From Spirochaetales bacterium (lineage in GTDB: Bacteria; Spirochaetota; Spirochaetia; Treponematales; Treponemataceae), in contig QKAR01000122.1 in NCBI GenBank assembly GCA_003246335.1, forward strand, positions 1 through 33,344: 33,344 nt of DNA, read 5' to 3'. A program made the position numbers and the translations under genes. The notes below the pieces were generated by a model that was not told the DNA's origin, made no database searches, and worked only from the letters and a program-made list of their open reading frames with translations. Shown here piece by piece: positions 1-12,677 of the stretch; position 1 is the first letter of the stretch; the number at the start of each line of letters is the position of its first letter.

Positions 1-1
1 A

Positions 2-604
2 TTTGATGAAAAAACAGGCAGAATTATCGGGTGAGATGCTGGAGGAAAATCCGCAACACAGCAAAGTTTGATAGAAATCGCCAAGAACAACGAATGGCAG
101 TTCCGATCTCAGGCCTTTGTTTATCCTGCTCTTGAAATTCTCAGTACGGAGCATCATCCTTCGTATCGGGAAATTATACCTTTATTGAACGCGAGTCCCT
201 TTGTTCCCCCTGATCGAATTTATACCTTCTGCAAGGCCATTGGGGCAGGTTTTGATTTTGATTTTCAGATTTTCTGTTCATTAATAATTCCTCAACTAGA
301 AAATTCGCTAAGATATATTTTGGAGCAATTGGGTGAGCGCCCATACAAGATCGAAGAGAATCATAAAGAAAGTGTTCTCTTGCTGGACAGTCTATTAGAC
401 AATAAAGTCCTCCAGCAATATCTCGGTGAATCAATGATATTTGAACTCAAAGGACATCTTTGTTTTGAAGGCTTTGGATATAATTTGAGAAATGATTTTG
501 CCCATGGACTTCTTTCGGACGATGAGTATACAACTTATGCCATAGTCGATTTGTTTTGGTTGGTTTTGCGCTTATGCATTCAGCCGGAAGAAATACAAAG
601 GTGA
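2..604 (+). pseudogene. DUF4209-domain protein, C-terminal part, in-frame stop
   Basis: The frame is open from the window edge as FDEKTGRIIG, hits TGA at 32-34, then continues unbroken to 604. Residues after the stop match the C-terminal DUF4209 region as I know it: VPPDR, IPQLENSLRYIL, and the signature NLRNDFAHGLL near the end. The short stretch before the stop also reads like family sequence, so one base change (for example CGA to TGA) is the simplest explanation. A shorter protein could start at TTG 68, which overlaps the stop of a frame-3 reading (3-71), but there is no good ribosome site. The family's function is unknown; it is common in accessory and defence-rich DNA. The 3' end runs into the convergent antitoxin-like gene. 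Confidence 0.6.
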
Positions 605-784
605 CAACGACCAGTTGCCCGTCTTTCTCGTCCGTTCCTTGAACCGTGCAAGAAGCTCCTGCCCGGAAAGTCCCTGGGCGACGAGATCGGTCACAATTTT
701 CTCGGAGAAGTCCGAGCTCTCATTGCGGCGCGGACTGATATAGATTCCTCCATCCTGAAGAATCGCTTCGGCACCTTGTGACAT
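572..784 (-). CDS. Small antitoxin-like protein, probably with replaced C-terminus
   Basis: This 70-residue leftward protein starts at ATG 784 behind a strong ribosome site (AAAGGAG, about 6 bases away), which argues it is or was expressed. The core, roughly residues 20-55 with FSEKIVTDLVAQGLSGQELL followed by ARFKER, resembles the C-terminal half of small antitoxins of the AbrB/VapB-associated type, where a LSGEELL-FKER stretch recurs. The normal continuation after FKER is lost near position 620. The last 15 or so residues (GNWSLSPLYFF) are read through the opposite strand of the DUF4209 gene end, so the two appear fused tail to tail at a recombination junction. No toxin gene is adjacent. 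The function call rests on motif resemblance only. Confidence 0.5.
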   Translation of the reverse strand: MSQGAEAILQDGGIYISPRRNESSDFSEKIVTDLVAQGLSGQELLARFKERTRKTGNWSLSPLYFFRLNA

Positions 785-807
785 AGTTATCTCCTTTCGC
801 TTCCGAA

Positions 808-836
808 GGCATAACGAGGAAACAAGGAAAAGTCAA
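808..836 (-). promoter_or_regulatory. Candidate promoter of the antitoxin-like gene
   Basis: On the minus strand TTGACT (complement of 831-836) lies 17 bases before TATGCC (complement of 808-813), upstream of the AAAGGAG ribosome site and ATG 784. The -35 box is good and the -10 box weak. The rest of 785-948 shows no other clear feature except the AAGGAG ribosome site of the gene at 949. Confidence 0.3.
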
Positions 837-948
837 ACTCTGCCTTAACATAGAATTACTTCAGGTGTTTTCATGCGCAACACGAAGAATTGGGTAAATT
901 TTCCTTCCAAATCCCTTGCTACCATAGCATCCGGAAGGAGAAAAACCC

Positions 949-1728
949 GTGTATATATATGGCTCCGAATGCACCCTTACCCTTGTCCGAAACGCAGAAC
1001 TGACCGCCATACCCTATACCCTTGAAACGATCCGCGAAGAACGGGAAGAAACTCCACTCGACCCGTTAGTCGGCTACATGATGCCGCTCGTCAACGTCCC
1101 TTGCGGCAGCGGCGAGCCGAAGGTGCTTGGCTGCACGGTTACCCGCGTGTGCGGAACGTCTCTCGTTCCGCTTGCTGCCCTCCTCGTCGACGGCTATCTC
1201 AAACCCTTCATGCTCTACCTCAACAGAATCGTCGAAAAACGCATCTATCGGAACCTCCTCCTTTCGGGCTGGGAAGTACGCGCCGACCGCGACGAGGCAG
1301 TCTATGTACGAATCGACATGGAAGGCCGGGAAGCGGCCGATTGGGATTACACGACCCCCGACATTCCCTGGGCGCAGAATGAGACTCTGCACTTTTACGA
1401 CGGCGACATCGTTCTTGACGGAATCGCCTCGGACAACATCTACCGCTTTTCCCTGACCCGCCTGTATGGTGACGCGATCTCGACCGTACTCCAGATTCAT
1501 TATCCGTTGAAGGACGGCGATGCCCTCAATAATATCCAGAAGTTCAGCGCCGTGACGCTGACACTCGGCAAGCGGCTCCGCTTTACCCTGACAGGCCTCG
1601 CCCTTCTGACCTTTCACGCCAACACCGACAACGCCGAGGAAATCCTCGTCGTCAGGCGGTTCCGCGTTGACAGTGACTGCATGATCGAAGTTTGCAATGA
1701 CAAAGGTGAATGGGTGACGCCTGCATGA
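949..1728 (+). CDS. Phage structural protein, probably tail component
   Basis: The 259-residue protein starts at GTG 949, behind AAGGAG about 8 bases upstream. I do not recognise a named family. It is rich in beta-type, alternating hydrophobic sequence, has no membrane segment or signal peptide, and contains repeated aromatic motifs (WDYTTPDIPW, FSLTRLYGD). It is the first gene of the rightward run, directly upstream of a baseplate-like protein with an overlapping stop and start. That position and composition suit a tail tube or distal tail protein. The structural role is inferred from context. Confidence 0.5.
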   Translation: MYIYGSECTLTLVRNAELTAIPYTLETIREEREETPLDPLVGYMMPLVNVPCGSGEPKVLGCTVTRVCGTSLVPLAALLVDGYLKPFMLYLNRIVEKRIYRNLLLSGWEVRADRDEAVYVRIDMEGREAADWDYTTPDIPWAQNETLHFYDGDIVLDGIASDNIYRFSLTRLYGDAISTVLQIHYPLKDGDALNNIQKFSAVTLTLGKRLRFTLTGLALLTFHANTDNAEEILVVRRFRVDSDCMIEVCNDKGEWVTPA

Positions 1729-3263
1729 AGTTCTACACGGTGGAAGACCGGCTCTCGGAGGCGATACACGAGGGCCGCACGAAGGTACGTGTCCGGGCCG
1801 CCTTCGACTTTACCGGAACCGGAGAATACGTCGCTATCCCCGAAACGGACATACTCGAGCTAACCGTAACGAGCTTGAAAGAAAAGACCGGCGGGACGAT
1901 CACACAAGGGACGCTCATTCTTGATAATACGACCGGCTCGTACTGTCCGCGTTTCTTCGACGCATACCGTCCTGCTTATAACAAATACAACGGACTCAAG
2001 CAAGCCGATGGACTTGGCAACCTCCGGCCCGATCGCATGGTGCAACTCTCGTACACGACCGGGAACGACATTCCCTTCGTGAAGCGATTTCTCTTGTACG
2101 TCGACGACAACGGATTCCAGCAGACGGCTACCGGCTACACGGGTCGAGTTTGCACCGTCGCTCTTGTCGATCTTGCTGAAAGGCTCAAGCAGACTGACAA
2201 ACAGAAGGACTGGACAAGTCCCGAGATAATCGTCCATTCGAGAATCTGCGACAAGGAATTTCCTGATTCGTCTATCGTTCATCGCATTGCCGCGCGAGCA
2301 GATCTTACCTCTGACGACGTTGACTGCTCGACGGTAACCGAATACCTCCCCTATGTGAAACTGACGCGCTCAGTATGGGCTGAGCTTTCTGATCTCGCGA
2401 CGGTATATAACGCGCACCTAGAAACAGCCCTCGAAAAACCGCTCGTCTTCGTGAACACCGAAGACGAGATTCAATACGTTTTTGATAATTCAAACGTAAA
2501 CCATATCCGGATGCACGATCTCCGCGACCAGTACCGCAACACCTTGCGCCTCCGCTGGACGCGTTATCGCGAGTTTTCCGGCATTGAGCTTTGGCGTTAT
2601 ACCGATCCACCGGTGATCTATACCGGGACGCTGACTCCCACCTATCCCTTTGTCGCCGAGGGAGAGAACCGGGATATCGAGAAAGCAGGATATGAAGCCC
2701 GGTATACCGTACAGCCGAACGACGGAAAGACACTCTCAGTCGTCTATGCGGAGAACGTAGATACGCAAGGAATCTTTACCGCGAATATCATTACTTCGGG
2801 ACCTGCCCTCCGGGTAACCGCGTATGACGTGACCACACTGCGCGATCGGGCGAGTATTCGTCTTGAAGCCGCCACCGACACCGTGCTGCTAAGGGCCGCG
2901 ATCAAGGGCGACGCAATAGCGGGAGAAACAAGCTTTTCGCATTACATCGATGATCCGGCAGAAGTGGCGATAAACGGAACCGTCGCCGAGAACATCACGA
3001 CACCCTACCTGTCGGAAACGCTCCGTGATGGTATTCCCTATTACCAGACGTACGCGGCGCGCCTTCTCTCGAAACTCAAACGAGCCCGGAAAGGTTTCTT
3101 CCTGAAAACGAACCGAGGGATCTTCCATGCTCGCGTCGGTGCGCCGGTGAGGATCAACATGGCTGACGGACTGATATCTGAGCGTTCCGAGATCGTGCAA
3201 ATGGAACTGCGATACAAGATGAAAGAGGCCTTCGTTGCCTCGTTCTTTCTTGAGGAGGAATGA
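1725..3263 (+). CDS. Large phage tail/baseplate protein
   Basis: This protein of about 512 residues is translationally coupled to the preceding gene: its ATG at 1725 overlaps the TGA at 1726-1728. ATG 1710 is a possible alternative with a nearby AAAGG. The N-terminal part (MKFYTVEDRLSEAIHEG, then a beta-rich region with a conserved-looking LDNTTGSYCPRF stretch) and the C-terminal part (RARKGFFLKTNRGIFHARVG, then ISERSEIVQMELRY) look like siphophage tail-associated hub or baseplate proteins that attach between tail tube and fibres. No enzymatic motif is seen. It precedes the lysis cassette, as late tail genes often do. The exact role is not identified. Confidence 0.5.
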   Translation: MKFYTVEDRLSEAIHEGRTKVRVRAAFDFTGTGEYVAIPETDILELTVTSLKEKTGGTITQGTLILDNTTGSYCPRFFDAYRPAYNKYNGLKQADGLGNLRPDRMVQLSYTTGNDIPFVKRFLLYVDDNGFQQTATGYTGRVCTVALVDLAERLKQTDKQKDWTSPEIIVHSRICDKEFPDSSIVHRIAARADLTSDDVDCSTVTEYLPYVKLTRSVWAELSDLATVYNAHLETALEKPLVFVNTEDEIQYVFDNSNVNHIRMHDLRDQYRNTLRLRWTRYREFSGIELWRYTDPPVIYTGTLTPTYPFVAEGENRDIEKAGYEARYTVQPNDGKTLSVVYAENVDTQGIFTANIITSGPALRVTAYDVTTLRDRASIRLEAATDTVLLRAAIKGDAIAGETSFSHYIDDPAEVAINGTVAENITTPYLSETLRDGIPYYQTYAARLLSKLKRARKGFFLKTNRGIFHARVGAPVRINMADGLISERSEIVQMELRYKMKEAFVASFFLEEE

Positions 3264-3264
3264 C

Positions 3265-3576
3265 GTGAACGAAGAAGACCGGAAGTTGCTTGCCGATGCG
3301 GTGGGAGTTATGAACGATCTCCGCGCGGACATGCGGGAATTTCGCGGCGAGATGAAAGAATTTAAACACCAATCGCTCGTGCGGATTACCGCGCTCGAGA
3401 GTGACCAGGTGGAATGCCAGAAGAACCCTACCGTCTGTGCGACCGCCCGGCTGCTCGAGAATCATCTACAGGGACACAAGGGCGGGAAAGGACTCGCGGT
3501 CTCGATCTGGGCCGTGTGTGTTTCGACCGTCATGTGCGTCTTTACGCTCGTTATGGCGTTCGTAAAAAGGAGCTAG
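3265..3576 (+). CDS. XhlA-like holin-associated membrane protein
   Basis: The start is GTG 3265, two bases after the previous stop and 5-6 bases after GAGGAGG. The 103-residue protein has an N-terminal heptad-like helix (roughly residues 1-45), a middle with three Cys residues, and one C-terminal membrane helix (about 78-98, VSIWAVCVSTVMCVFTLVMAF) ending in basic VKRS. This is the layout of hemolysin XhlA-type phage lysis proteins, which pair with a holin and endolysin. The endolysin gene follows after seven bases. The call rests on architecture and position. Confidence 0.55.
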   Translation: MNEEDRKLLADAVGVMNDLRADMREFRGEMKEFKHQSLVRITALESDQVECQKNPTVCATARLLENHLQGHKGGKGLAVSIWAVCVSTVMCVFTLVMAFVKRS

Positions 3577-3583
3577 CAAAGAA

Positions 3584-4153
3584 ATGATCAACTGGAAAAA
3601 GATATTCGAGGTGGAAGCGGAGCAGTTCGGGAAAATGACCGAACAGGAAAAGTTCATCTATTTTCTGCTACTCCAATATCGCTCACCGTACCTCTGGGGA
3701 AAGGAACTTCCCGACGGTGCCGATTGTTCCGGCTCCGTGTGCCTCGCCCTCGCGGCGGCAACCGGGAAGATTGTAAGGACAACCGCAGATGAACTCTACC
3801 GGAAGTTCTTTACGGTGAAAAATCCGGGCGTGACCGACATTCAGGCCGTGTTCTTCATCGCGCAGTATGACAGGCCTCATGGCGATCGAGTCCTTCGGAC
3901 GGGAGAGGTCGGGCATGTTACGGGAGTGATTGCCGAAGGAGTCGTGATGAACGTCGTCGAGCCGAAGGGAGACATCAGGCTCGTTTCTTCGCTCCGGAAT
4001 TCCTACGCACTTCGGGGCTTTGACATGGCGATCCGGGGACTCGACCGCAAGGCGTTCGTGGCGGCGGCGGACGCCGGAACGACACTCTTCGGACTCGATA
4101 CCGAGTTTGCCGAGTACATCGAGACCGGGAAGGAGAAGGCAGAAATATGGTAA
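3584..4153 (+). CDS. NlpC/P60-family endolysin
   Basis: The 189-residue protein starts at ATG 3584, with GGAG about 10 bases upstream. It carries the NlpC/P60 catalytic layout: YRSPYLWGKELPDGADCSGSV with the nucleophile Cys in DCSGS (about residue 49), and a downstream GHVTGVI whose His (about residue 112) would be the second catalytic residue. The family cuts peptide stems of peptidoglycan. There is no signal peptide, so export would depend on the neighbouring holin-like protein, as for classical endolysins. About 60 residues follow the catalytic domain and may serve in binding or regulation. It is the best-supported lysis gene of the cassette. Confidence 0.8.
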   Translation: MINWKKIFEVEAEQFGKMTEQEKFIYFLLLQYRSPYLWGKELPDGADCSGSVCLALAAATGKIVRTTADELYRKFFTVKNPGVTDIQAVFFIAQYDRPHGDRVLRTGEVGHVTGVIAEGVVMNVVEPKGDIRLVSSLRNSYALRGFDMAIRGLDRKAFVAAADAGTTLFGLDTEFAEYIETGKEKAEIW

Positions 4154-4416
4154 GCGAAAACGGAGAAGAGACCGGGTACAAGGAAGTGTGCGACTACAGC
4201 TTCCAGGAACATCTTGTAATCCTGGGGAAGCGCCTTCTCGCACTTCCATCCAAGATGATCGGCTTCAAGCCGTTCTGCCTGTACCTTGCGACCTGGCTCC
4301 TCGTGTCGGGCAAGATTGGCGAATGGGTGTGGTTCGCGGTGATGGTCTCGGTGCTGTTCGGCATCGTGGGGCTGAAGGTGCTCGCGCAGATGAGGGGCGG
4401 AGGAACGGTGGAATGA
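4147..4416 (+). CDS. Holin-like two-helix membrane protein
   Basis: ATG 4147 overlaps the end of the endolysin gene (stop 4151-4153) and has AAGGAG upstream inside it. The 89-residue product has a charged N-terminus, two likely membrane helices (about residues 41-53, FCLYLATWLLVSG, and 58-78, EWVWFAVMVSVLFGIVGLKVL) and a short C-terminal tail. Size, two-helix layout and position directly after an endolysin gene fit a holin, which would form the lesion that releases the enzyme. No specific holin family is recognised. Confidence 0.5.
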   Translation: MVSENGEETGYKEVCDYSFQEHLVILGKRLLALPSKMIGFKPFCLYLATWLLVSGKIGEWVWFAVMVSVLFGIVGLKVLAQMRGGGTVE

Positions 4417-4712
4417 ACAAGGTCAAAACATTTTTTATCTGGCTGGCGCGGGGACTGGTTGGAATTCTCCTCGCGGTCTTTACGGTTCTTCTGGTAAGGG
4501 AAAGGAAAGCCAATGATTTTGAAACGGTCGCGGAAGGCGAACGGCAGAAAGCCGAGGATGCTGTGCACGCTACTCCTCCTCGCACAGTTGCAGAGCGGTA
4601 CGATGGTGTGGGCGACTCCATTGAGTCAGGAAGAAATCGATTCGCTTCTCGGGTCAAGAACAGAGTTCTCGCGGCAGGAGGTCGCAGAATTGATGAGCAA
4701 CATACTGAGTGA
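4413..4712 (+). CDS. Single-helix membrane protein, possible inner-membrane spanin-like
   Basis: ATG 4413 overlaps the previous TGA (ATGA). The 99-residue product has an N-terminal membrane helix (about residues 6-27, FFIWLARGLVGILLAVFTVLLV) followed by a charged stretch (ERKANDFETVAEGERQKAE) that could form a helix, then a basic tail. An N-terminal anchor with a periplasmic helical body matches inner-membrane spanins (Rz-like), which act last in phage lysis of two-membrane cells. The last 200 bases overlap, in another frame, the gene starting at 4513, as Rz1 is embedded in Rz. No sequence identity to known spanins is claimed. Confidence 0.5.
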   Translation: MNKVKTFFIWLARGLVGILLAVFTVLLVRERKANDFETVAEGERQKAEDAVHATPPRTVAERYDGVGDSIESGRNRFASRVKNRVLAAGGRRIDEQHTE

Positions 4713-4926
4713 TGCTGACGAAGAGATCGAGCGAACGGCACAGGAAGCCGTACGAGAGGTTGCCGCGCAAGACGCAGGCGAGATTACCTTTCAGAAAAGC
4801 CTTGCCGAAAGTTGGAAAAATGAGGCTGCGCGTATCGACGGAGAGCGTGCCGTGTGGCGTACCTGTACGGTAGTCGAGGCGATCGTGATCCTTGGCGGGA
4901 TATTGCTTTTCGGGGTGACGAGATAA
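4513..4926 (+). CDS. Overlapping membrane protein with FliM-like motif
   Basis: The ATG at 4513 follows AAGGAAAG and lies inside the preceding gene, in another frame. Read from there, the 137-residue protein has a signal-like start: basic residues to about 15, hydrophobic LCTLLLLAQL, then VWA-TP as a possible cleavage site. A charged helical middle and a C-terminal membrane helix (about 118-135, VVEAIVILGGILLFGV) follow. There is no lipobox, so it is not a classical Rz1 lipoprotein. Residues 37-46, LSQEEIDSLL, closely resemble the N-terminal CheY-binding motif of the flagellar switch protein FliM. A shorter form from ATG 4612 (MVWATPLSQ...) would place that motif at a cytoplasmic N-terminus on a tail-anchored protein, though its ribosome site is weak. 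Confidence 0.55.
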   Translation: MILKRSRKANGRKPRMLCTLLLLAQLQSGTMVWATPLSQEEIDSLLGSRTEFSRQEVAELMSNILSDADEEIERTAQEAVREVAAQDAGEITFQKSLAESWKNEAARIDGERAVWRTCTVVEAIVILGGILLFGVTR

Positions 4927-4935
4927 GGAGAAAAG

Positions 4936-5493
4936 GTGAGATCGAAATACAGAATAAAGGGAACCGTCCGGGTGTGCGTGATCGCGCCCGATGGTTCTGT
5001 GAAGCGGCATGAACCCGGCTGGCTCAGGCGGCTTCTTGGACTTCCAGGAAAGCCAATGGTGTCCGCCCATCACAATACGATTACCCGGCAGGGCGAGGGC
5101 CTCATTACCGACCTTCTCCTCGGAACGCCGACGCAAACCAAGATTACCGGAGGCGTCGGGTATATGCAGATCGGAACCGGCTGGACGGGGAACAGCCCGA
5201 AGACGAATACACGGTGCAACACGCCGCTTATGTACAACTCGATGAAGGTTGTCGACGCAGGATATCCGGTCACTACCGCAGCCTTCGGCTTGACGGGCGA
5301 TAACATCTTGCGCTATCGGGCAAGTTATCCAGCAGGCAGTATGGCGGCTGCGGGTATCAATGAGGCGTGCCTTCTTAACGGAAACACGGCTGCGGCCATA
5401 TCTCTCGCATATGCACAGATCACTCCTGCCGTCACCGTCGGCTCGCTCGACAGCCTGCAGATCGACTGGGAAGTTACGTTCACGGGTTCTTGA
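4936..5493 (+). CDS. Phage tail-fibre-type protein
   Basis: The 185-residue protein starts at GTG 4936 behind AAGGAG. A basic N-terminal part (residues 1-40) is followed by HHNTITRQGEGLITDLLLG, then GVGYMQIGTGWTGNSPKTNT and LMYNSMKVVDAGYP. The pattern of a stretch that announces an N- or L-terminal free end, an I-G-TG run and alternating small residues is common in tail fibre or tail tip proteins of siphophages. No enzymatic motif is present. It overlaps the next gene by one base (TGATG). The structural role is inferred from pattern and position. Confidence 0.45.
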   Translation: MRSKYRIKGTVRVCVIAPDGSVKRHEPGWLRRLLGLPGKPMVSAHHNTITRQGEGLITDLLLGTPTQTKITGGVGYMQIGTGWTGNSPKTNTRCNTPLMYNSMKVVDAGYPVTTAAFGLTGDNILRYRASYPAGSMAAAGINEACLLNGNTAAAISLAYAQITPAVTVGSLDSLQIDWEVTFTGS

Positions 5494-6965
5494 TGAGCGT
5501 ATTTACCCAGGACCGATCCTCATACTTTCTTGACCAGTCGGTACGGGATTCGCCGTGCCGGGTTCATCTCGCCGGGAAAGAAACGCTTTTCTCGCTCTCA
5601 AAATGGGGCGGAGAGGCAGCCCTCAGTTTTGCGCCCGGCGGAGATCATGAGGGGAAAATCGAGATAGTAAGGAATGAACTCCTTCTCAAGCCATCGGCGA
5701 CACCGAAGGCTCACCATGTTTTCCGGAAGCTCGACGGAGACCGATTCGAGTATGACGTGATTCTTCTGAAGGAACCGGAGAGTAACGTCATCGAGATTGA
5801 TCTCGACTTCCCCGACGGGATCGAGTTCTATCGGCAACCAACCCTTGAGGAAGTGACGCGTCATCATGTTGCGTGCGCGCCGGAAGTGATCGAAAGCTAT
5901 GCGGTGTACTGGAAGGAAGCGAACAACCAGTACAAGACCGGGAAGTTCTGCCATATCTACCGGCCCTTGATTTACGATGCCCGCGGCCGGAAGGTCTGGG
6001 GACGGCTCGACCTTTCCGGGAAGCGGATGACTATCACGATACCGGACGGGTGGCTCGCGGACGCGGCGTATCCGGTCGTGGTTGACCCGATTATCGGGAC
6101 TCAGACAGTCGGAGCAAACAAGCAAATAGTGTGGTGGGCGGGAGAGGACCCTGATGATTTCTATCTTGAACTCATGATGGCGGTAACGAAGTTCATGACG
6201 AGTTCAACGCCTATTCAGGGGTTCTGCCGTGCATACCTCTATTCATACCTGAGCGGTGACTACGAAGCACAGCCGGTAGTGTATTCCGATTCCGGAGGGA
6301 AGCCATTCCAACGAGAAACGCAGCAGGAAACGGTGGTGAGCTGCAGCGTCGCGACGCCGGGTTGGGTACAATCGTCGTTCATCGCGTTCCCTGGCATTCA
6401 AGCCTACACGCCGTTCTGGTTCGGCTTCAATACGCCGGGAATATTCTACACCTACTTTGATTACGCGAGCACGATGTACCGGATGTGGACCGAGAACATG
6501 GCAGGACCTCCGGCAACATTTACGGATTCTTTTAATCAGTCCTGGAACGTGAAGATGAGCGCGTACTTTGAATTCGCATTGCCTCAGGCGTATCAGCGAA
6601 AAGTATTACTTTCGGTCGGGACAACTGCGAGCAGTCCGAGTAATTGCATGAATATGAGAAGGCTATGTTCTGACGTAATGCTGAGTGTTGAAAATCATGG
6701 AATCATTGGGAATTTTCTCAGGATTTGTTCATCAATGTCTGAATTGCAGGATGTTTTCAGCTTTTCGGTAGCGTTCGTTCGCCGGTGTGCGTCGAACATC
6801 GCTGGCGTTCTGAATATTGCTCGGCGGCTTTCGGTGTCCCGGAGGGTCGCAAGCTCGTTCATTGCCTTTGAACTGCTCAAGCGACGTCTTTGTCTGATGA
6901 AAGACGAAGTGATAATCGTCTCGCGCATAACGAGGGAGATCGAGTTCAAAGGGTATCTCGTATGA
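5493..6965 (+). CDS. Large phage tail/fibre protein
   Basis: ATG 5493 overlaps the previous stop (TGATG). The 490-residue product has a beta-rich N-terminal half that ends in TITIPDGWLADAAYPVVVDP, a phrase frequent in phage and surface proteins that precede a receptor-binding part. The middle is aromatic-rich. The C-terminal 120 residues change character to Cys- and Arg-rich sequence with repeated short motifs (MRRLCSDVMLSVEN, FVRRCASNIAGVLNIARRLSV), which could be a trimer-forming or repeat tip. It is probably a tail fibre or appendage. No family is named with certainty. Confidence 0.45.
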   Translation: MSVFTQDRSSYFLDQSVRDSPCRVHLAGKETLFSLSKWGGEAALSFAPGGDHEGKIEIVRNELLLKPSATPKAHHVFRKLDGDRFEYDVILLKEPESNVIEIDLDFPDGIEFYRQPTLEEVTRHHVACAPEVIESYAVYWKEANNQYKTGKFCHIYRPLIYDARGRKVWGRLDLSGKRMTITIPDGWLADAAYPVVVDPIIGTQTVGANKQIVWWAGEDPDDFYLELMMAVTKFMTSSTPIQGFCRAYLYSYLSGDYEAQPVVYSDSGGKPFQRETQQETVVSCSVATPGWVQSSFIAFPGIQAYTPFWFGFNTPGIFYTYFDYASTMYRMWTENMAGPPATFTDSFNQSWNVKMSAYFEFALPQAYQRKVLLSVGTTASSPSNCMNMRRLCSDVMLSVENHGIIGNFLRICSSMSELQDVFSFSVAFVRRCASNIAGVLNIARRLSVSRRVASSFIAFELLKRRLCLMKDEVIIVSRITREIEFKGYLV

Positions 6966-7252
6966 CGAACATCTTTGTCGGTCAGTCGGCCCTTCGAATT
7001 TCAGTGCGGACTGGGACGGCGCTTGCCGATGTCGCTACGTGTGAAATGCGGTTCGAGAAGCCGGACGGCACACGCGGAATATGGACTGCGTTCGTAAGCA
7101 ACGCCGATCGGGGCGTTGTCTCGTACGACGTGACGGGGGGTGAAATCGATCAGGCGGGTTGGTGGCGCTTCTGGGTGTTCGTGACCTTCGTTGACGAGCG
7201 GTCAGCCTTCGGGGATGCGGTGAAGGTGTTCGTGCGAGAGGAAGGACGGTGA
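6962..7252 (+). CDS. Small phage protein, baseplate/Ig-like domain
   Basis: ATG 6962 overlaps the previous TGA (ATGA). The 96-residue product begins MTNIFVGQSALRISV, then has CEMRFEKPDGTRGIWTAFV, GVVSYDVTGGEIDQAGWWRF and ends in KVFVREE. The KPDGT-W-A pattern and alternating strands resemble short immunoglobulin-like phage domains near fibres, as in the N-terminal domain of BppU-type baseplate proteins. A helper or chaperone for the preceding fibre is another possibility. A longer reading from 6890 would sit inside the fibre gene and is less likely. Confidence 0.45.
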   Translation: MTNIFVGQSALRISVRTGTALADVATCEMRFEKPDGTRGIWTAFVSNADRGVVSYDVTGGEIDQAGWWRFWVFVTFVDERSAFGDAVKVFVREEGR

Positions 7253-7551
7253 CTTGTCGAAAACGACGGCGGAATCCGTACAGCTGGCAAATCAGGAGGC
7301 TTCTCGACTTTGCACAATATGAGCTGCAGGAATCGCAGTTCTATGAAATGTGTTACGAGAAGACTGCCAGAAAAATACCGATGAAGGTTCTGTCTGTGAT
7401 GATTTTTTTCCTCAAGGAACACTATCGGAGAAAACCCGGCTCTCTGGTGACTCTCTACCGGTCAGCGCACTCGGATGAATCGGTGTGTACCGACTTCGAG
7501 AAGCGGTACGAGAAATATTATGCGGCGCTACAAGAAAGGGGGTTCTTGTGA
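7249..7551 (+). CDS. Small phage protein of unknown function
   Basis: GTG 7249 overlaps the previous stop (GTGA). The 100-residue product is basic at its start (TCRKRRRNPYSWQIRR) and appears mostly helical, with charged and aromatic residues and no membrane segment. I do not recognise it. It is sandwiched by four-base overlaps between a tail-type gene and the helicase gene, so it belongs to the same transcript. A DNA-binding or helicase-associated role is possible from its charge but unsupported. Confidence 0.5.
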   Translation: MTCRKRRRNPYSWQIRRLLDFAQYELQESQFYEMCYEKTARKIPMKVLSVMIFFLKEHYRRKPGSLVTLYRSAHSDESVCTDFEKRYEKYYAALQERGFL

Positions 7552-8957
7552 GTGAAGAGGATCGAGAACTCGATGTTCAGTACGACGCGCTTCAGCTCAA
7601 GCTGGATGACCTTATTGCCGGGAAGGAGCAGTTTACCGACCTTACCAACGCGGAACTCTTCGTGAAGGCGTATTGCGACCGGATACGATATTGCATGGCC
7701 TGGAAGAAATGGTTGATCTGGGACGGGAATGCCTGGCGGCCGGACGATTGCGGGGAGATATTCGCGCTCTGTAAAGATTTCCTTCGTGGACTGTTCCTGC
7801 AGGTTGCGACGGTGAGCGATCACAAACGAGCGGTTGATATGGCGTCACATGTGGTGAAGTCGGAGTCGTTGCGGAGGAGGCAGGCTCTCGTTGAGACCGC
7901 ATCGTTCGAGCGACGGGTGAGGATTTCGCCGAAGGACGTTGATCAGGAACCGTTTCTGTTGAACGTCCTTAACGGGACGCTTGATCTTCGGTCCGGGGAG
8001 CTGTTCCCGCCGATGAAAGAAAAGTACATAACCAAATGCGCGTCGGTGACGTTCAACCGCGAGGCTGCCTGTCACACCTGGAATAACTTTCTCATGAGGA
8101 TTATGGACGGTAATGCCGGTCTGATTTATTTTTTGCAGAAAGCCGTCGGCTGGGCATTGACGGGTGACATGAGCGAGCAGGTAATGTTCATTCTGTACGG
8201 TTCGGGAGCCAACGGTAAGAGTACGTTTCTGAACGCGATCATGGATATTCTCGGTGAGTACGCAATGTCGACTCAGACAGAAACCTTTATGCGGAAAAAC
8301 GGAAACGTCATGTCGAACGATATAGCTCGTCTACGCGGGGCGCGGTTCGTGACGACGGTGGAAGCAGAGGAAGGGCGGCGACTCAGTGAGCCATTGATCA
8401 AGCAGGTTACGGGACAGGACGTCCTGACCGCGCGATTCCTGTACGGAGAGTATTTCGATTTCCTTCCGACGTTCAAGATATTCATGGCGACAAACCACAA
8501 GCCGGTAATCCGGGGAAACGATCTCGGTATCTGGCGGAGAATAAAACTCATACCTTTCACGGTGACCATTCCCTACGAGGAGCGTGATCCCGACCTGATG
8601 AAAAAGCTGCAAGCCGAAAAGGAAGGCATTCTCAACTGGATTCTTGAAGGATGCCTTCGATGGCAGAGGGAACGGCTCGGGGAACCGGATGAGGTAAAAC
8701 TCGCGACGGAAGAATATCAGGAAGAGATGGATCTTATCGGCTCATTTATTGGCGAATGCTGCATACTGGATGCGTCCGGGTATCTTCGGGTAACGTCAAA
8801 TGATCTCTACCGGGAGTACCTCGCCTGGTGCGAGAAGAACTCTGAGCGACCGTATGCGCAGCGTATATTCGCGATGCACCTGCAAAACAAGGGAATACAA
8901 AAGGAACGCACGAAGAAAGCTCGCGGATGGGTTGGAATCGCATTACGGAATGAATAA
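7548..8957 (+). CDS. P4-family phage/plasmid helicase (D5-like SF3 ATPase)
   Basis: GTG 7548 overlaps the previous stop (GTGA) and follows AAAGGGGG. Residues 25-75 (LTNAELFVKAYCDRIRYC, then KWLIWDGNAW) match the D5_N-type domain. The superfamily 3 ATPase follows, with Walker A GSGANGKST (about residue 218), acidic VEAEEGRRL, and the sensor-like FKIFMATNHKPVIRGNDLGIWRR. The C-terminal 90 residues (VTSNDLYREYLAWC) match the DNA-binding end of P4-type proteins. It would unwind phage DNA at the origin as a hexamer. At about 469 residues it lacks room for the N-terminal primase domain of full-length P4 alpha-type proteins. It lies at the end of a late-gene run and directly left of GGTGAC iterons. 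Confidence 0.88.
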   Translation: MSEEDRELDVQYDALQLKLDDLIAGKEQFTDLTNAELFVKAYCDRIRYCMAWKKWLIWDGNAWRPDDCGEIFALCKDFLRGLFLQVATVSDHKRAVDMASHVVKSESLRRRQALVETASFERRVRISPKDVDQEPFLLNVLNGTLDLRSGELFPPMKEKYITKCASVTFNREAACHTWNNFLMRIMDGNAGLIYFLQKAVGWALTGDMSEQVMFILYGSGANGKSTFLNAIMDILGEYAMSTQTETFMRKNGNVMSNDIARLRGARFVTTVEAEEGRRLSEPLIKQVTGQDVLTARFLYGEYFDFLPTFKIFMATNHKPVIRGNDLGIWRRIKLIPFTVTIPYEERDPDLMKKLQAEKEGILNWILEGCLRWQRERLGEPDEVKLATEEYQEEMDLIGSFIGECCILDASGYLRVTSNDLYREYLAWCEKNSERPYAQRIFAMHLQNKGIQKERTKKARGWVGIALRNE

Positions 8958-8997
8958 CCGATAACGTCGAACAAACACTACCAGCATTCACAGGGAA

Positions 8998-9024
8998 ACC
9001 GGCAAAGATCCTTGCCGGTTTTTT
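8998..9024 (+). terminator. Rho-independent terminator after the helicase gene
   Basis: ACCGGCAA (8998-9005) pairs perfectly with TTGCCGGT (9012-9019) around a six-base loop and runs into a T tract with six consecutive T. It sits 40 bases after the stop of the last gene in the rightward run and should end that transcript. Confidence 0.85.
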
Positions 9025-9051
9025 GTTTTCCCCCATGCTCCCCTTTCATCG

Positions 9052-9276
9052 GGTGACGGAAAAGGTGACACATGCGGTGACGGCAAATACAGACCAGAAA
9101 GATTAGCGCGGGCTAACGAATACCGATACAGACAAATGCACACAAACCGGAAGAGATATTATATGAGTGTTATTTATAGTTTTTTATGGTGACACATAAG
9201 ACCTATAAAAAAAAGAATATAAGAGAAGAAATCGGTTGTTTGTTTTTTTGGTGTCATCGGCGATTTTTCCGTCACC
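9052..9276. other. Candidate phage replication origin (GGTGAC iterons plus AT-rich DNA)
   Basis: GGTGAC occurs at 9052, 9064 and 9076, exactly 12 bases apart, with units alternating GGTGACGG and GGTGACACAT. It recurs at 9188 (again GGTGACACAT) and as an inverted copy at 9271 (GTCACC), with a GGTGTC variant at 9250. Between them, about 9155-9250, the DNA is very AT-rich, suitable for opening. The P4-type helicase gene ends 95 bases to the left. From memory, the P4 alpha protein binds iterons of the form GGTGAACA, which is close. The origin function is inferred. Confidence 0.5.
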
Positions 9277-9351
9277 GGAAAAGCAAGTAAAAGCGAGTGG
9301 CTGCGCGCGCTCCCCGATAAATATTTCTGGAAGCTAAAAAAGTTTTGAATC

Positions 9352-9372
9352 CCCGCCCGCGTAGCGGGCGGG
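9352..9372. repeat. Perfect GC-rich hairpin
   Basis: CCCGCCCGC, a GTA loop and GCGGGCGGG form a perfect nine-pair stem. AAGCTAA (9331-9337) and TTAGCTT (9402-9408) can pair around it, as can ATTTCTG (9323-9329) with CAGAAAT (9386-9392). There is no T run, so it is not a simple terminator. It may be the 5' end of the structured region. Confidence 0.55.
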
Positions 9373-9463
9373 CTCAGCGTGTAATCAGAAATTTCACGAT
9401 ATTAGCTTTCAGAACGGAATCATCAGAGGAGCGGCCTGGAGGCAACCTTTCGATTCCGCATTA

Positions 9464-9533
9464 CCGACCGGTCTGCGGACGGCGGTTCGGAAGGACGATA
9501 GTCCTGGAGAACCGCTGGACGCTGTCCGGTCGG
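9464..9533 (+). other. Long hairpin with symmetric GGA/GGA internal loop
   Basis: CCGACCGG (9464-9471) pairs with CCGGTCGG (9526-9533). Further in, GCGGTTC pairs with GAACCGC, then a symmetric GGA/GGA internal loop, then AGGAC pairs with GTCCT around a GATA loop. The part between the outer helices has several more possible pairs. This reads like a folded RNA arm rather than coding sequence. Confidence 0.5.
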
Positions 9534-9718
9534 TTGGCGATAAACCGTTGCCGGAAGGTCGCGTGCTGACAGTACGGAGATAGGTCGCGGAATCGGTTCA
9601 AGGCAGAAGGCGTCGAGGAATAGGCGTTTACGATGCGTTTGAGCAACCTCAGAAGAAAGCATGAAGAGCAAACACGAAGAGTCTTCTTGACGGTTGAGCT
9701 TATCGCCTGGAATCAACT

Positions 9719-9880
9719 GCTCTAAAAAGTGCCGGGCAAGTGCAACGCGCCGGAGCCCCTAAGAGGCCCCCCCTCTCCCCAAGTTCAATAGCGGTACCTT
9801 ATCGTAGGGTATGCGGGGGGTGAGGGGTTTGGGGAGAGGGGGGCCGGCAGGGGCGGAGGGAACCCGGCGCTTTTTGGAGC
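9719..9880 (+). other. 162-base nested hairpin
   Basis: Three nested helices form one structure: 9719-9736 with 9863-9880 (18 pairs), 9755-9760 with 9849-9854 (6 pairs), and 9765-9782 with 9829-9845 (17 pairs, one bulged C). The two departures from Watson-Crick pairing in the outer helix (9723/9876 and 9730/9869) are U-G in plus-strand RNA but A-C in minus-strand RNA. A plus-strand RNA fold is therefore favoured over a DNA cruciform or minus transcript. Confidence 0.6.
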
Positions 9881-10500
9881 CACGGATTACCAGCAGACAG
9901 TTGCACGAAAAATGGGAACTGAGCTTTCAGTGACGGCAGGTTGCGTACTGACGGTTTGCCGGAAATGTGACGAGAAGCGAATGAGCAAACAGTTTTAAAA
10001 GCGGTGCCATGAAAACGCGGTTAAGGTGCCCTTGTACGGAGAGCGGGAAAGCGCGGAACGAGGGACCGGGAGCACGAGGCCAGGAGGGCCGAAGTGCGGA
10101 GGGACCGAGTGAAGGTGAGGAGCGCAAGGATGCGCGACGAACTGGTTTGAGCCAGGAACTGACGGTATGCGTGAGATGCGCCATGTGGCGGGTGATGCTG
10201 CCGGTGACGATAGATTTCTTGGGAACAAAAATAATTTGACGAACGAAGGAACGAGGAAGAGAGGAGCATTCCCGGACGGAGGGACTGCAAGGACCGACGG
10301 GAGGGTGTGCGACGAGCGACCGAGTGACGGAGAGAGACAAGTTGTTTTTGTTGTCTTAGGAGAGAGAACTACGGAAGCGGTGGGCGTGAAATGCAGCAGG
10401 AGGAACATTGCAGAATTGGGCGAGGTAGAGTCCTGGGAACAATACCGCGTCGTGAACGGAGGAGCGAGCTTACGAGCGACGGAGAGAACGATGCGGTATT

Positions 10501-10790
10501 GTTGACCCTTATTCTGAAACACCTGTTGTGCAAGGCGAATCAATGTCATTATTGCGGGCATTTTCTGCATCAAAAGGTTTTGTGCAGAGGCATGCGTTTT
10601 GACCGGACAGGTTACATTCTGTATCGTAATAGTTCATAAGGAACCTCCTTATGCGTTGAATATACATAAAACTGCTGCTACTGGATAGTAAAAAGTAACA
10701 TAAGGCTAACAAGTTAAGGCATGAGTTAAGGCAAAAACCTGCCAAGCGTAAACAAATAGAAGTAACTGCATAGAATACAAACCAAGCAAA
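10501..10790. other. Gene-free stretch before the attachment site
   Basis: No gene is seen. It holds a hairpin at 10565-10587 (CTGCA with TGCAG, plus CAAA with TTTG), a perfect eight-pair hairpin at 10635-10653 (CATAAGGA, ACC, TCCTTATG), and the AGTTAAGGCA repeats listed separately. It is more AT-rich than the preceding region, as is usual for DNA around phage attachment sites. Confidence 0.5.
10712..10733. repeat. Tandem AGTTAAGGCA repeats, possible integrase arm sites
   Basis: AGTTAAGGCA occurs at 10712-10721 and 10724-10733, 12 bases apart. A shorter TAAGGC copy is at 10701-10706. They lie about 130 bases left of the attachment core, where tyrosine integrases bind arm-type sites. No integrase gene is in view, so the role is inferred. 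Confidence 0.35.
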
Positions 10791-10819
10791 TTGCTTGCTG
10801 ACGGGTTTTGTGTTATACT
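10783..10819 (+). promoter_or_regulatory. Strong promoter with palindromic operator facing the attachment site
   Basis: TTGCTT (10791-10796), a 17-base spacer and TATACT (10814-10819) make a good housekeeping-type promoter. A 15-base palindrome, CAAGCAA-A-TTGCTTG (10783-10797), overlaps the -35 box and could be an operator. In the integrated state transcription would run through the tRNA half straight into the terminator at 10895-10944. In an excised circle it would run across the attachment site into the other end of the element. Confidence 0.55.
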
Positions 10820-10858
10820 CTTTTGTATAGCTTTGCTTGCTTATGTATGGGGCTTTGC

Positions 10859-10900
10859 CTCATAATCCGTCGGTCCCTGGTTCAAGTCCAGGTGGGCCCA
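10859..10900 (+). other. Attachment site: 3' half of a tRNA with CAT anticodon
   Basis: The canonical 3' half of a tRNA is complete: anticodon loop CTCATAA (10859-10865, anticodon CAT), 3' anticodon-stem strand TCCGT, five-base variable loop, T arm CCTGG-TTCAAGT-CCAGG (10876-10892), acceptor strand TGGGCCC and discriminator A (10900). CCA is not encoded. The 5' half is missing: no GGGCCCA acceptor strand, no D arm, and the bases before the loop (TTTGC) do not pair with TCCGT. This is what integration into the 3' part of a tRNA-Met (or Ile-CAT) gene leaves at the far end of an element. Confidence 0.8.
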
Positions 10901-10944
10901 AAATAGAAAAGCCGTCCTTCGGGGCGGCTTTTCTATTTTGGGCC
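10895..10944 (+). terminator. Very strong hairpin terminator overlapping the tRNA end
   Basis: The arms 10895-10917 and 10922-10944 pair over 23 positions (one G-T) around a TTCG tetraloop. The lower five pairs use bases of the tRNA acceptor strand (GGCCC). The A-rich left arm and T-rich right arm make it potentially bidirectional. It is probably the original terminator of the disrupted tRNA gene. Confidence 0.85.
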
Positions 10945-11060
10945 GTAGATAAAAGAAAATCGCGAAGCGATTATTACCGCGGAATCAACCCTCCCAAACG
11001 GCTAATTCTCAGAGTTATAGGATCTCCTCAAAACGCCCCCGCACTGCTATAATCACGCCC

Positions 11061-11224
11061 ATGTTCGAACAATCCTTCAAAAATATCGACGATATATTGC
11101 ATAAAGACGCGGGCTGCTCGAATTGAAATATGACTCTGTCCCTGAGGCTGCGGTAATACTCGGCGGGGTTGAGATTATCCGGGAATTGTTTACGAATTTT
11201 CAGAAAGCGTTATACGGAGCGGCA
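11061..11224 (+). pseudogene. Scar of a type I restriction-modification locus (hsdM start, possible hsdR end)
   Basis: ATG 11061 opens MFEQSFKNIDDILHKDAGCS, the characteristic N-terminus of HsdM methylase subunits, but a TGA follows at 11124-11126. In a different frame from about 11108 the sequence reads RGLLELKYDSVPEAAVILGG, then IIRELFTNFQKALYGAA, then TAG at 11222-11224. That ending resembles C-termini of restriction subunits (HsdR), though less certainly than the hsdM match. A deletion that joined the first 20 codons of hsdM to the end of the operon explains both. Nothing here is likely to be functional. Confidence 0.55.
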
Positions 11225-11236
11225 TAGGAGTTACTC

Positions 11237-11398
11237 ATGAGGAATTCCGAATTCATTGTATTGCTTGCCCCTACGTATATTGCTCTCGGTTATCCCAACG
11301 AAATGCACTCCGCGGGAAATACACAAATGACCTTGAGATTCCGGCCATCGGCAATATCAAACTTTTCAGTCGGTACTTTCCGTCATGGTGTAAAATAA
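11237..11398 (+). CDS. Possible small protein of unknown function
   Basis: ATG 11237 has a good AGGAG six bases upstream and opens a 53-residue frame (MRNSEFIVLLAPTYIALG...). The sequence resembles nothing I know and may be part of the restriction-locus scar. No other feature is seen between the terminator at 10944 and the gene at 11406 except a small hairpin at 10958-10972 (AATCGC, GAA, GCGATT). Confidence 0.2.
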   Translation: MRNSEFIVLLAPTYIALGYPNEMHSAGNTQMTLRFRPSAISNFSVGTFRHGVK

Positions 11399-11405
11399 GA
11401 AAATC

Positions 11406-12146
11406 ATGAGCGCTTATTTTTTCGCGAGCCTGTTCGTCGTCGTCATCGCCGGTTTCTTCCAGGGATTAACCAGTTTTGGGTTCGCGCTCATCGCGATGCC
11501 CCTGCTCTCGAGGATAATGACGATGCGGGAGGCCGTGCCCCTCGTCGTTATCTTAAGCTTGGTGACGAATCTTCTCGTCCTGAAAGACTGCCATAAACGG
11601 ATACAGCTAAAAAAAGTATGGAAGCTCATCGTCGCGAGCGTCGTCGCGGCCCCTCTCGGCGCGTATTCGTTAGTCTACGTGGAGGGCGACTATCTCAAGG
11701 TTTTCGCGGGTCTCGTCGTCGTCGCGGTCGCCGGCCTTCTCCTTTCCGGAAAAAAGTTTCCGATCAAGAACGAGAAAATCGCGTATTATCCCGTTGGGTT
11801 TCTCAGCGGTTTCCTGAACGGTAGCATTTCGATGAGCGGTCCGCCCATCGCGCTGTTCCTATCGAATCAAGGTATCGATAAAAATGAATTCCGGGCAAAC
11901 ATCGCGTTTTACGCCGTGTTCCTCAATGTTTTCACCATAGCGTCTTTCGCATACGGCGGGCTCATCACGGGTAAGGTCGTGTCGCAAACGGCACTCTACG
12001 CGGCGAGCATGGCTATCGGCGTTTACGTCGGAATACGCGCGATTCGCTCGCTCGACGAGTCGCTGTTCAGGAAAATCGCCCTCGCGCTCATTCTCGTTTC
12101 GGGAACGGTCACGCTCGTCGCCGCGGCGTTGCGCCTCGCGAAATAA
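11406..12146 (+). CDS. TauE/SafE-family membrane transporter
   Basis: The 246-residue, very hydrophobic protein has about seven to eight membrane helices. It begins with the family's N-terminal repeat (FQGLTSFGFALIAMPLL, residues 19-35) and has the matching second repeat (FLSGFLNGSISMSGPPIALFLS, residues about 132-153). The glycine-rich pair of repeats is the hallmark of TauE/SafE permeases, proposed exporters of sulfite, sulfonates or related organic anions. The substrate cannot be told from sequence. A TAAAAT hexamer lies nine bases before the ATG and there is no ribosome site, so the start may be leaderless or coupled to something lost upstream. Confidence 0.85.
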   Translation: MSAYFFASLFVVVIAGFFQGLTSFGFALIAMPLLSRIMTMREAVPLVVILSLVTNLLVLKDCHKRIQLKKVWKLIVASVVAAPLGAYSLVYVEGDYLKVFAGLVVVAVAGLLLSGKKFPIKNEKIAYYPVGFLSGFLNGSISMSGPPIALFLSNQGIDKNEFRANIAFYAVFLNVFTIASFAYGGLITGKVVSQTALYAASMAIGVYVGIRAIRSLDESLFRKIALALILVSGTVTLVAAALRLAK

Positions 12147-12191
12147 GCGACGGGATTCCCGGCGGCCTTGCGCGTTCGGAACGGCGTGCCG

Positions 12192-12197
12192 TATACT
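12192..12197 (+). promoter_or_regulatory. -10 element almost abutting ATG 12204
   Basis: TATACT lies six bases before ATG 12204. The usual initiation distance would put the first transcribed base at or near the A of the ATG, and no ribosome site is present, so a leaderless mRNA is likely. The -35 region is unclear (TTGCGC at 12166 is 20 bases away). Confidence 0.4.
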
Positions 12198-12203
12198 TTT
12201 CGC

Positions 12204-12677
12204 ATGAACGACTTACTGGCGGAACTTTTGCGGCAGGAAGAGGAACTTCGGTTCGATTCCTTCAACGAGGACGACGCGTGGGAACTTGGAGCGCTGTTCG
12301 TCGGGCGCGCAAAAGAGGAGCGGCTGACGGTATCCATCGATATCTCGACGAAAGACAAGGTCCTGTTCCATTACAGCTTCCGGGGGACGAATCCCGACAA
12401 CGACGAGTGGATTCGACGAAAGCGGAACCTCGTGAATCGGTTTGGGCACAGCTCGTATTATTTCGGGCAAAAACTGAAGGCCGACGGCGCGACGCTCGAA
12501 GGCAGGTATTACGTTTCCGAGGCCGAATACGCGGCGCACGGAGGCTGCTTTCCGCTCGCGATCAAAAACGTCGGCGCGATCGGGACGATCACCGTGTCCG
12601 GTCTCGCCCAGGCAGACGACCACGAGTTCGCGACGCGCGTCGTCCGGGAATTCATCCAAGCGAAAGCGGCAAGGTAA
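12204..12677 (+). CDS. UPF0303-family (GlcG/HbpS-like) protein
   Basis: The 157-residue soluble protein starts at ATG 12204; a TTG 12168 start would add residues that fit nothing. It opens LLRQEEELRFDSFNEDDAWELG and contains FHYSFRGTNPDNDEWIRRKRN and a C-terminal IGTITVSGLAQADDHEFATRVV, which together are the UPF0303 pattern. That family shares a fold with GlcG/HbpS heme- or small-ligand-binding proteins. The biochemical role is not established. It is followed after ten bases by the Gfo/Idh/MocA oxidoreductase, so the two are probably co-transcribed. Confidence 0.8.
   Translation: MNDLLAELLRQEEELRFDSFNEDDAWELGALFVGRAKEERLTVSIDISTKDKVLFHYSFRGTNPDNDEWIRRKRNLVNRFGHSSYYFGQKLKADGATLEGRYYVSEAEYAAHGGCFPLAIKNVGAIGTITVSGLAQADDHEFATRVVREFIQAKAAR

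Follow-up and report, generated by a model that had tools for sequence, protein, structure and literature searches.

To our knowledge, few giant phage RNAs have been described. Two of them assemble into RNA cages, GOLLD as a 14-mer and ROOL as an 8-mer. GOLLD is a giant structured RNA of phages and prophages that is often found near tRNAs; many members are over 800 nt long, the 3′ region is conserved and the 5′ region variable, its level rises during lysis and its function is unknown (PMC12286853). One GOLLD was reported to be dispensable for phage production (PMC7567579). According to PMC12286853, ROOL is a large structured phage or prophage RNA with no known protein partner and of unknown function, both GOLLD and ROOL form cages made of RNA only, and OLE, a large ornate bacterial RNA, forms a dimer with long coaxial helices. 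Finally, phage ICP1 produces a non-coding RNA of ~800 nt from a gene-free stretch of ~1 kb (PMC7567579). Here, we describe a locus in a spirochaete prophage that very probably encodes, at positions 9330 to 10510 of the plus strand, a giant non-coding RNA with an elaborate structure, whose class is new and absent from Rfam; its transcription is inferred.

The window analysed is one whole contig of 33,344 nucleotides (G000:C73) from a Spirochaetales bacterium, and it begins within a prophage. Positions ~1 to 7250 carry tail and lysis-type genes, most of them without family matches. The first-pass annotation had placed a possible giant RNA at 9322 to 10500, between a phage helicase and a tRNA attachment site. 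The helicase is indeed there, as a phage primase-helicase of the P4/D5 type with 490 amino acids and D5_N and DUF5906 domains (7485 to 8957, plus strand; Pfam D5_N, 4.9e-25; PHROGs phrog_1829, DNA primase, 8.6e-131), and in the majority of homologous loci, the RNA is preceded by a primase of this type. Between the primase and the RNA, direct reading of the sequence revealed an inverted repeat resembling an intrinsic terminator (AAACCGGCAA-6-TTGCCGGTTT, followed by a T-rich stretch; 8996 to 9029, plus strand), which was missing from the output of a simple scan. Next to it, a conserved box, CCCCCATGCTCCCC (CCCCCRTGCYCCC in relatives; 9030 to 9043, plus strand), opens an origin-like unit and is identical or very similar in L024, G357, G124, G369, G214, G156, L055 and L120. 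The origin-like stretch itself (9052 to 9280, plus strand; also read directly from the sequence) has GGTGACR repeats at 9052, 9064 and 9076, that is, with a spacing of 12 bases, a fourth copy at 9188, the inverse GTCACC near 9271 and an AT-rich stretch in between. It is conserved in part in G8a and G5 and is inferred from its sequence to be a putative replication origin. A second conserved box, GCGCGCGCTCCCCG (9303 to 9316, plus strand), lies directly 5′ of the RNA and is identical or very similar in L024, G5, G124, G369, G174, G156, L055 and L120. A strong sigma-70 promoter was not found; the closest match directly ahead of the RNA is 9/12.

At the other end of the locus lies half a tRNA-Met gene, its 3′ part (10859 to 10900, plus strand; 42 nt that are 88% identical to tRNA-Met genes of phages), which is the prophage attachment site. 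Thus, the tRNA attachment site of the first-pass annotation exists as a half gene, but no complete tRNA is present. Directly behind it lies a near-perfect inverted repeat with arms of ~23 bp (10895 to 10944, no strand assigned), which was aligned as a hairpin in a relaxed Rfam search; the microRNA family name it received there is a chance match. A blastn search of GenBank phages gave matches to the tRNA half and to the adjoining palindrome, but to nothing else. No other copy of the attachment sequence was found in the assembly; the contig begins inside the prophage. A tRNA-like 3′ half is also located downstream of the RNA in G369, G156 and the copy on contig C155 of the window's own genome, the locus in G001 has a match to the attachment sequence of the window, and an integrase gene directly follows the second RNA copy of G008 (L019).

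The conserved unit between these ends extends from ~9330 to 10510 on the plus strand (~1,180 bases, ends approximate), and the coordinates first proposed were therefore correct to ~10 bases. The plus-strand hairpins claimed for it are far above chance: positions 9322 to 10321 fold with -414 kcal/mol, compared to -349 ± 7 kcal/mol for dinucleotide shuffles (z = -9.3), and when 7500 to 12299 was scanned in windows of 300 nt, the z-scores that were strongly negative concentrated at ~9000 to 11100, i.e., in the RNA and the palindromic attachment end. The claim that the region contains no credible gene also held. Indels broke the reading frame in 10 of 10 cases versus L024 and in 22 of 22 versus G8a, and the open stretches are not common to homologues. 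Since indels nearly always break the frame, no protein is conserved in 9330 to 10510, and the suggested check for a conserved reading frame across the region found none among the homologues compared. Long open antisense frames do exist, because a purine-rich plus strand has few stop codons when read in reverse. They would fit decayed coding DNA or functionless low-complexity sequence, but this explanation can practically be dismissed: it is refuted by the covariation described below, and the frame-breaking indels and the conservation over two families contradict it as well.

The plus strand is favoured as the working strand. A consensus fold of six homologues gave 203 pairs and -136.7 kcal/mol for the plus strand, versus 145 pairs and -83.0 kcal/mol for the minus strand, and the preference is evident in the 3′ part, where 10200 to 10499 had a z-score of -7.3 on the plus strand and of -0.1 on the minus strand. 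In some members from the other family, the z-score of the minus strand is equal to or better than that of the plus strand. As a strand test, the ratio of G-U to A-C cells was rejected, since column-shuffled alignments yielded an identical ratio. These data bear on the question of whether the locus is a DNA-level element, such as an origin, a replication terminus or a site of packaging or recombination, with palindromes that function at the level of DNA. Such a function would suit a site between a primase, iteron-like repeats and an attachment site, and would also suit the several long GC-rich palindromes and the good folding of both strands in parts of the locus. We nevertheless consider it improbable, because the consensus fold prefers one strand, 10200 to 10499 folds well only as the plus strand, and the purine loops that are invariant on one strand and the tandem GA layout are typical of RNA.

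The giant structured RNA proposed in the first-pass annotation is supported by covariation in homologues, for which column-shuffled alignments served as controls. In the consensus fold, 93% of the cells were paired and 34 of the 203 pairs covaried on both sides; column-shuffled alignments gave 126 pairs, with 14.2 ± 3.5 covarying on both sides, and -62.1 ± 5.7 kcal/mol. Trimmed alignments were used for the domains, as G8b had been misplaced in a MAFFT alignment (A2); only six to eight homologues were usable per domain, and the 5′ third is less certainly aligned. Two-sided covariation was found for 24 of 54 pairs in the core, 11 of 34 in domain IV and 7 of 17 in domain V. The observed measures were reached by 0 to 1 of 500 shuffles, with the exception of one core measure (31 of 500). 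When the partners were shifted by 1 to 3 columns, only 24 to 61% of the cells paired, compared to 92 to 96% without a shift. The structures were chosen on the alignments that were tested, which gives them an advantage against the slid controls in the proportion of paired cells; the covariation measures carry more weight.

At the 5′ end, the first element is the hairpin CCCGCCCGCGTAGCGGGCGGG (9352 to 9372, plus strand; alignment A1 and consensus fold), whose pairing is retained in relatives despite a different sequence. It is followed by a long-range helix (9431 to 9562, plus strand; consensus fold), in which GCGGCCU-GGA-GGCAAC (9431 to 9446) pairs with GUUGCC-GGA-AGGUCGC (9547 to 9562). This helix encloses an inner arm (9465 to 9534), and covarying versions of it are present in G5 and G8a in the alignment. 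The core domain (9719 to 9880, plus strand; alignment A7) consists of an outer helix of 18 bp, a small hairpin, an inner helix of a C-rich and a G-rich strand and a conserved CGGUACCUUA apex. Its two-sided covariation was reached by 0 of 500 shuffles, and the outer helix retains its pairing with a largely different sequence in G5, G8b and G265. Domain III (10060 to 10148, plus strand) comprises a GA-looped hairpin (10060 to 10110) and a GGUGAGGAGC...GCGACGAAC hairpin; it rests on the consensus fold and on alignment A10, which has 11 members, including other genera and the other family.

The 3′ part of the RNA contains two copies of one module. Domain IV (10218 to 10356, plus strand; alignment A5, 91.9% paired) has an AU-rich stem followed by a GA ladder with tandem GA/GA 2x2 loops, and domain V (10432 to 10507, plus strand; alignment A6, 96.1% paired) is the 3′-terminal copy of this module, with a 7x7 loop, GAACGGA/GGAGAGA. 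They are internal duplicates, as a covariance model of domain V (R2) matches domain IV with an E value of 1e-10. Each begins with UGGGAACAA, which is followed by the closure of the stem, a purine-rich loop and then steps of 1 to 2 bp alternating with 2x2 loops. The GA-rich internal loops noted in the first-pass annotation are real and nearly invariant: almost all sequences have GA/GA in the 2x2 loops, while covariation is seen in several of the intervening steps, and the 7x7 purine loop of domain V is almost invariant. A search for the 7x7 loop motif with pairing constraints in ~2 Mb of DNA (both strands, redundant) found ten places and none in shuffled DNA; one of the ten is in viral contig L120, where the sequences of the helices are different. 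Tandem G-A loops of this type should adopt sheared pairing and thereby extend the helix, which would make the GA-ladder arm a rigid rod. Solo hairpins with the GA motif (GAACGGAGGAGCG...GCGACGGAGUGA) were seen in L111 (397 to 437) and L112 (6522 to 6561), in the latter between ordinary genes; the rest of the RNA is apparently missing there.

Homologues of the RNA were found by different approaches. Using blastn over relatives, copies were detected in G008 (two), G001, G005, G009 and contig C155 of the window's own genome; a pattern search derived from the core led to viral contig L024, in which the copy is full length, and nhmmer gave full-length matches in L024 and L018. Two of the carriers are Spirochaetales metagenome genomes. 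Among 394 genomes of the order, 15 were matched by a covariance model of the core (R1); they include members of a second family and of two other genera from the family of the window. Viral contig L120 was matched as well. The weakest matches of R1, below ~45 bits, are less certain when taken alone. Overall, the homologues come from the window's own genus, from additional genera, from a second family and from two viral contigs, and a tRNA 3′ half often lies beside them. In a sample of the whole phylum, R1 found no members beyond those known from the order. A further 23 viral contigs (L029 to L051) that came up in DNA pattern scans with shorter motifs were identified as chance matches by nhmmer. 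In homologues from several genera and from the second family, the order is the same, i.e., primase, boxes, RNA and attachment end. Downstream of viral relatives of the primase (~40 to 50% identity), there was mostly coding DNA and no core match; the exceptions are L120, which has a core match, and possibly L055, which is gene free and hairpin rich in this place but has no core match. The carriers of this RNA class are tailed phages and prophages of spirochaetes.

Some loci deviate from this arrangement or carry additional genes. In G009 the RNA is cut and homology ends before domain V; the sequence after this point (L023, 577 to 8604) carries a gene for a P-type ATPase and, around an integrase, two AbiEi/AbiEii-like toxin-antitoxin pairs, these names being deduced from the sequence. 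The start of an AbiEi-like gene, named on the same basis, follows the RNA in L024 (12550 to 12701), and proteins resembling PAS-HD-GYP and DUF72 proteins are encoded between primase and RNA in that contig (8207 to 10798). Near the RNA of G008 (L018, 8376 to 11858), there is a cargo-like PAS-HD-GYP regulator together with hemerythrin-like and flavodiiron-like proteins, the latter two assigned by sequence alone. The second copy in the window's own genome (L021, 3225 to 3539 and 4011 to 4949) lies beside an integrase-like fragment, and the RNA has been kept there although the prophage seems to have decayed. In L055, a repetitive stretch (10200 to 11450) with repeated-peptide open frames on both strands lies downstream of the RNA-like gene-free region, and TD-2 RNAs, an sRNA family of Rfam, are present in viral contigs with a related primase (L054, 1088 to 1183 and 1558 to 1654; L065, 1780 to 1896). 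In several assemblies, the sequence breaks off at the C/G-rich core or close to it (L022, 1; L023, 1; L103, 6297 to 6454; L105, 6303 to 6468), and thus, draft genomes probably underestimate how common the RNA is.

The RNA lies between a replication unit, which is made up of the primase and the origin-like repeats, and the attachment end. One possible reading is a role in cis, as a primer, as an antisense-type control or as a long leader or 3′ UTR that regulates replication at the adjacent origin-like repeats or the expression of neighbouring phage genes. In L024, the CCCCCRTGC box and the RNA remain together although cargo genes separate the RNA from the primase, and the remnant in G008 (L018) retains part of the origin-like unit and the RNA without a primase nearby. 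Because box and RNA stay together without an adjacent primase, a role in cis replication is the main rival. However, a length of 1.2 kb, duplicated domains and a sealed 3′ end far exceed what is usual for cis regulators, there is no gene between the RNA and the attachment site in the window, and a terminator-like repeat stands between primase and RNA. Taken together, we regard a function in cis as unlikely, though it has to be kept in mind.

The reading that we favour, although tentatively and without claiming even odds for it, is a trans-acting structural or scaffold RNA, as GOLLD and ROOL are thought to be. This reading is by analogy, because size class, genomic setting and elaborate architecture are shared with GOLLD and ROOL; direct support for a scaffold is lacking. 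By inference, the RNA is transcribed rightward from the origin-like stretch. Its fold has a 5′ part held by the long-range helix, a core arm rich in GC and a duplicated pair of purine GA-ladder arms, of which the second seals the 3′ end. It may then act in trans in phage growth, either alone, as a homo-multimer, or together with a protein. That it would assemble without protein into a defined cage, ring or bundle by way of long rigid arms, in which Watson-Crick pairs alternate with tandem sheared G-A pairs, is more doubtful still and has no direct support. If it does, the GA ladder would be a recurrent building block of a new kind, and no other class of self-assembling phage RNAs would be as large.

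The shared traits raise the question of whether the RNA is a very divergent GOLLD or ROOL, as the first-pass annotation had considered alongside a new class. Size class, phage location, a nearby tRNA sequence and elaborate structure would be in line with this, but the models of ROOL (RF03087) and GOLLD (RF02032) match neither the window nor the 14 carrier genomes. The proposed search with Rfam covariance models was run on the window and matched neither GOLLD nor ROOL nor any other family over the RNA. At the gathering score, no family covered the RNA in the window or in homologous loci, and at E ≤ 5, there was no credible match on 8900 to 11000; the matches at relaxed thresholds were mostly of eukaryotic microRNA type, besides other chance matches to palindromes. 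A group II intron was matched neither at the gathering score on the window nor, by any group II family, at E ≤ 5 on 8900 to 11000, and RF01998, a group II intron family, matched solely on other contigs. In the 14 carrier genomes, RF03087 gave no match at E ≤ 1, and RF02032 gave one chance match elsewhere in G089, with 12.8 bits versus a cut-off of 150. The control genomes were silent with both models, so that the sensitivity of the GOLLD run was not demonstrated and the negative result depends above all on scanning the locus with Rfam. That the RNA belongs to GOLLD or ROOL was not borne out and is very improbable, and as no Rfam, ROOL or GOLLD model matches, we prefer the new class. A search of the literature, restricted to openly licensed papers, found no description of such an RNA.

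The new class is based on observations, namely a conserved covarying structure, a strand preference, the lack of coding and a recurrent gene neighbourhood. If spirochaete phages indeed carry a third class, larger than GOLLD and ROOL, unrelated to them and linked to the replication and attachment end, this would mean that giant RNAs have evolved in phages repeatedly. The recurrent neighbourhood is a handle on function and the GA ladder a clear structural target; moreover, the identifier of L120 resembles that of an isolate genome, and therefore, expression may be directly testable there.

The RNA is non-coding, longer than 500 nt and of elaborate covarying structure, and thus meets the criteria for a giant ornate phage RNA. 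It also shares with GOLLD the trait of being encoded by a phage or prophage, often near tRNAs (here the primase and the tRNA-Met half), but this is a shared property and not diagnostic. OLE, in contrast, occurs in Gram-positive extremophilic or anaerobic species (PMC9723947) and is not a phage RNA, and the locus described here has no Rfam match to it. The ICP1 RNA is located at the start of the lysis cluster of a phage without tRNAs; the two were not compared in sequence. GOLLD is alike in size class, phage setting and elaborate structure but has no sequence in common with our RNA, and as far as PMC12286853 was consulted, it describes neither GA-ladder modules nor a C/G core for GOLLD. The RNA described here, with ~1.2 kb, adjoins a primase and a tRNA-derived attachment site instead of a tRNA array, and compared to ROOL, it is about twice as long and resides in phages of spirochaetes.
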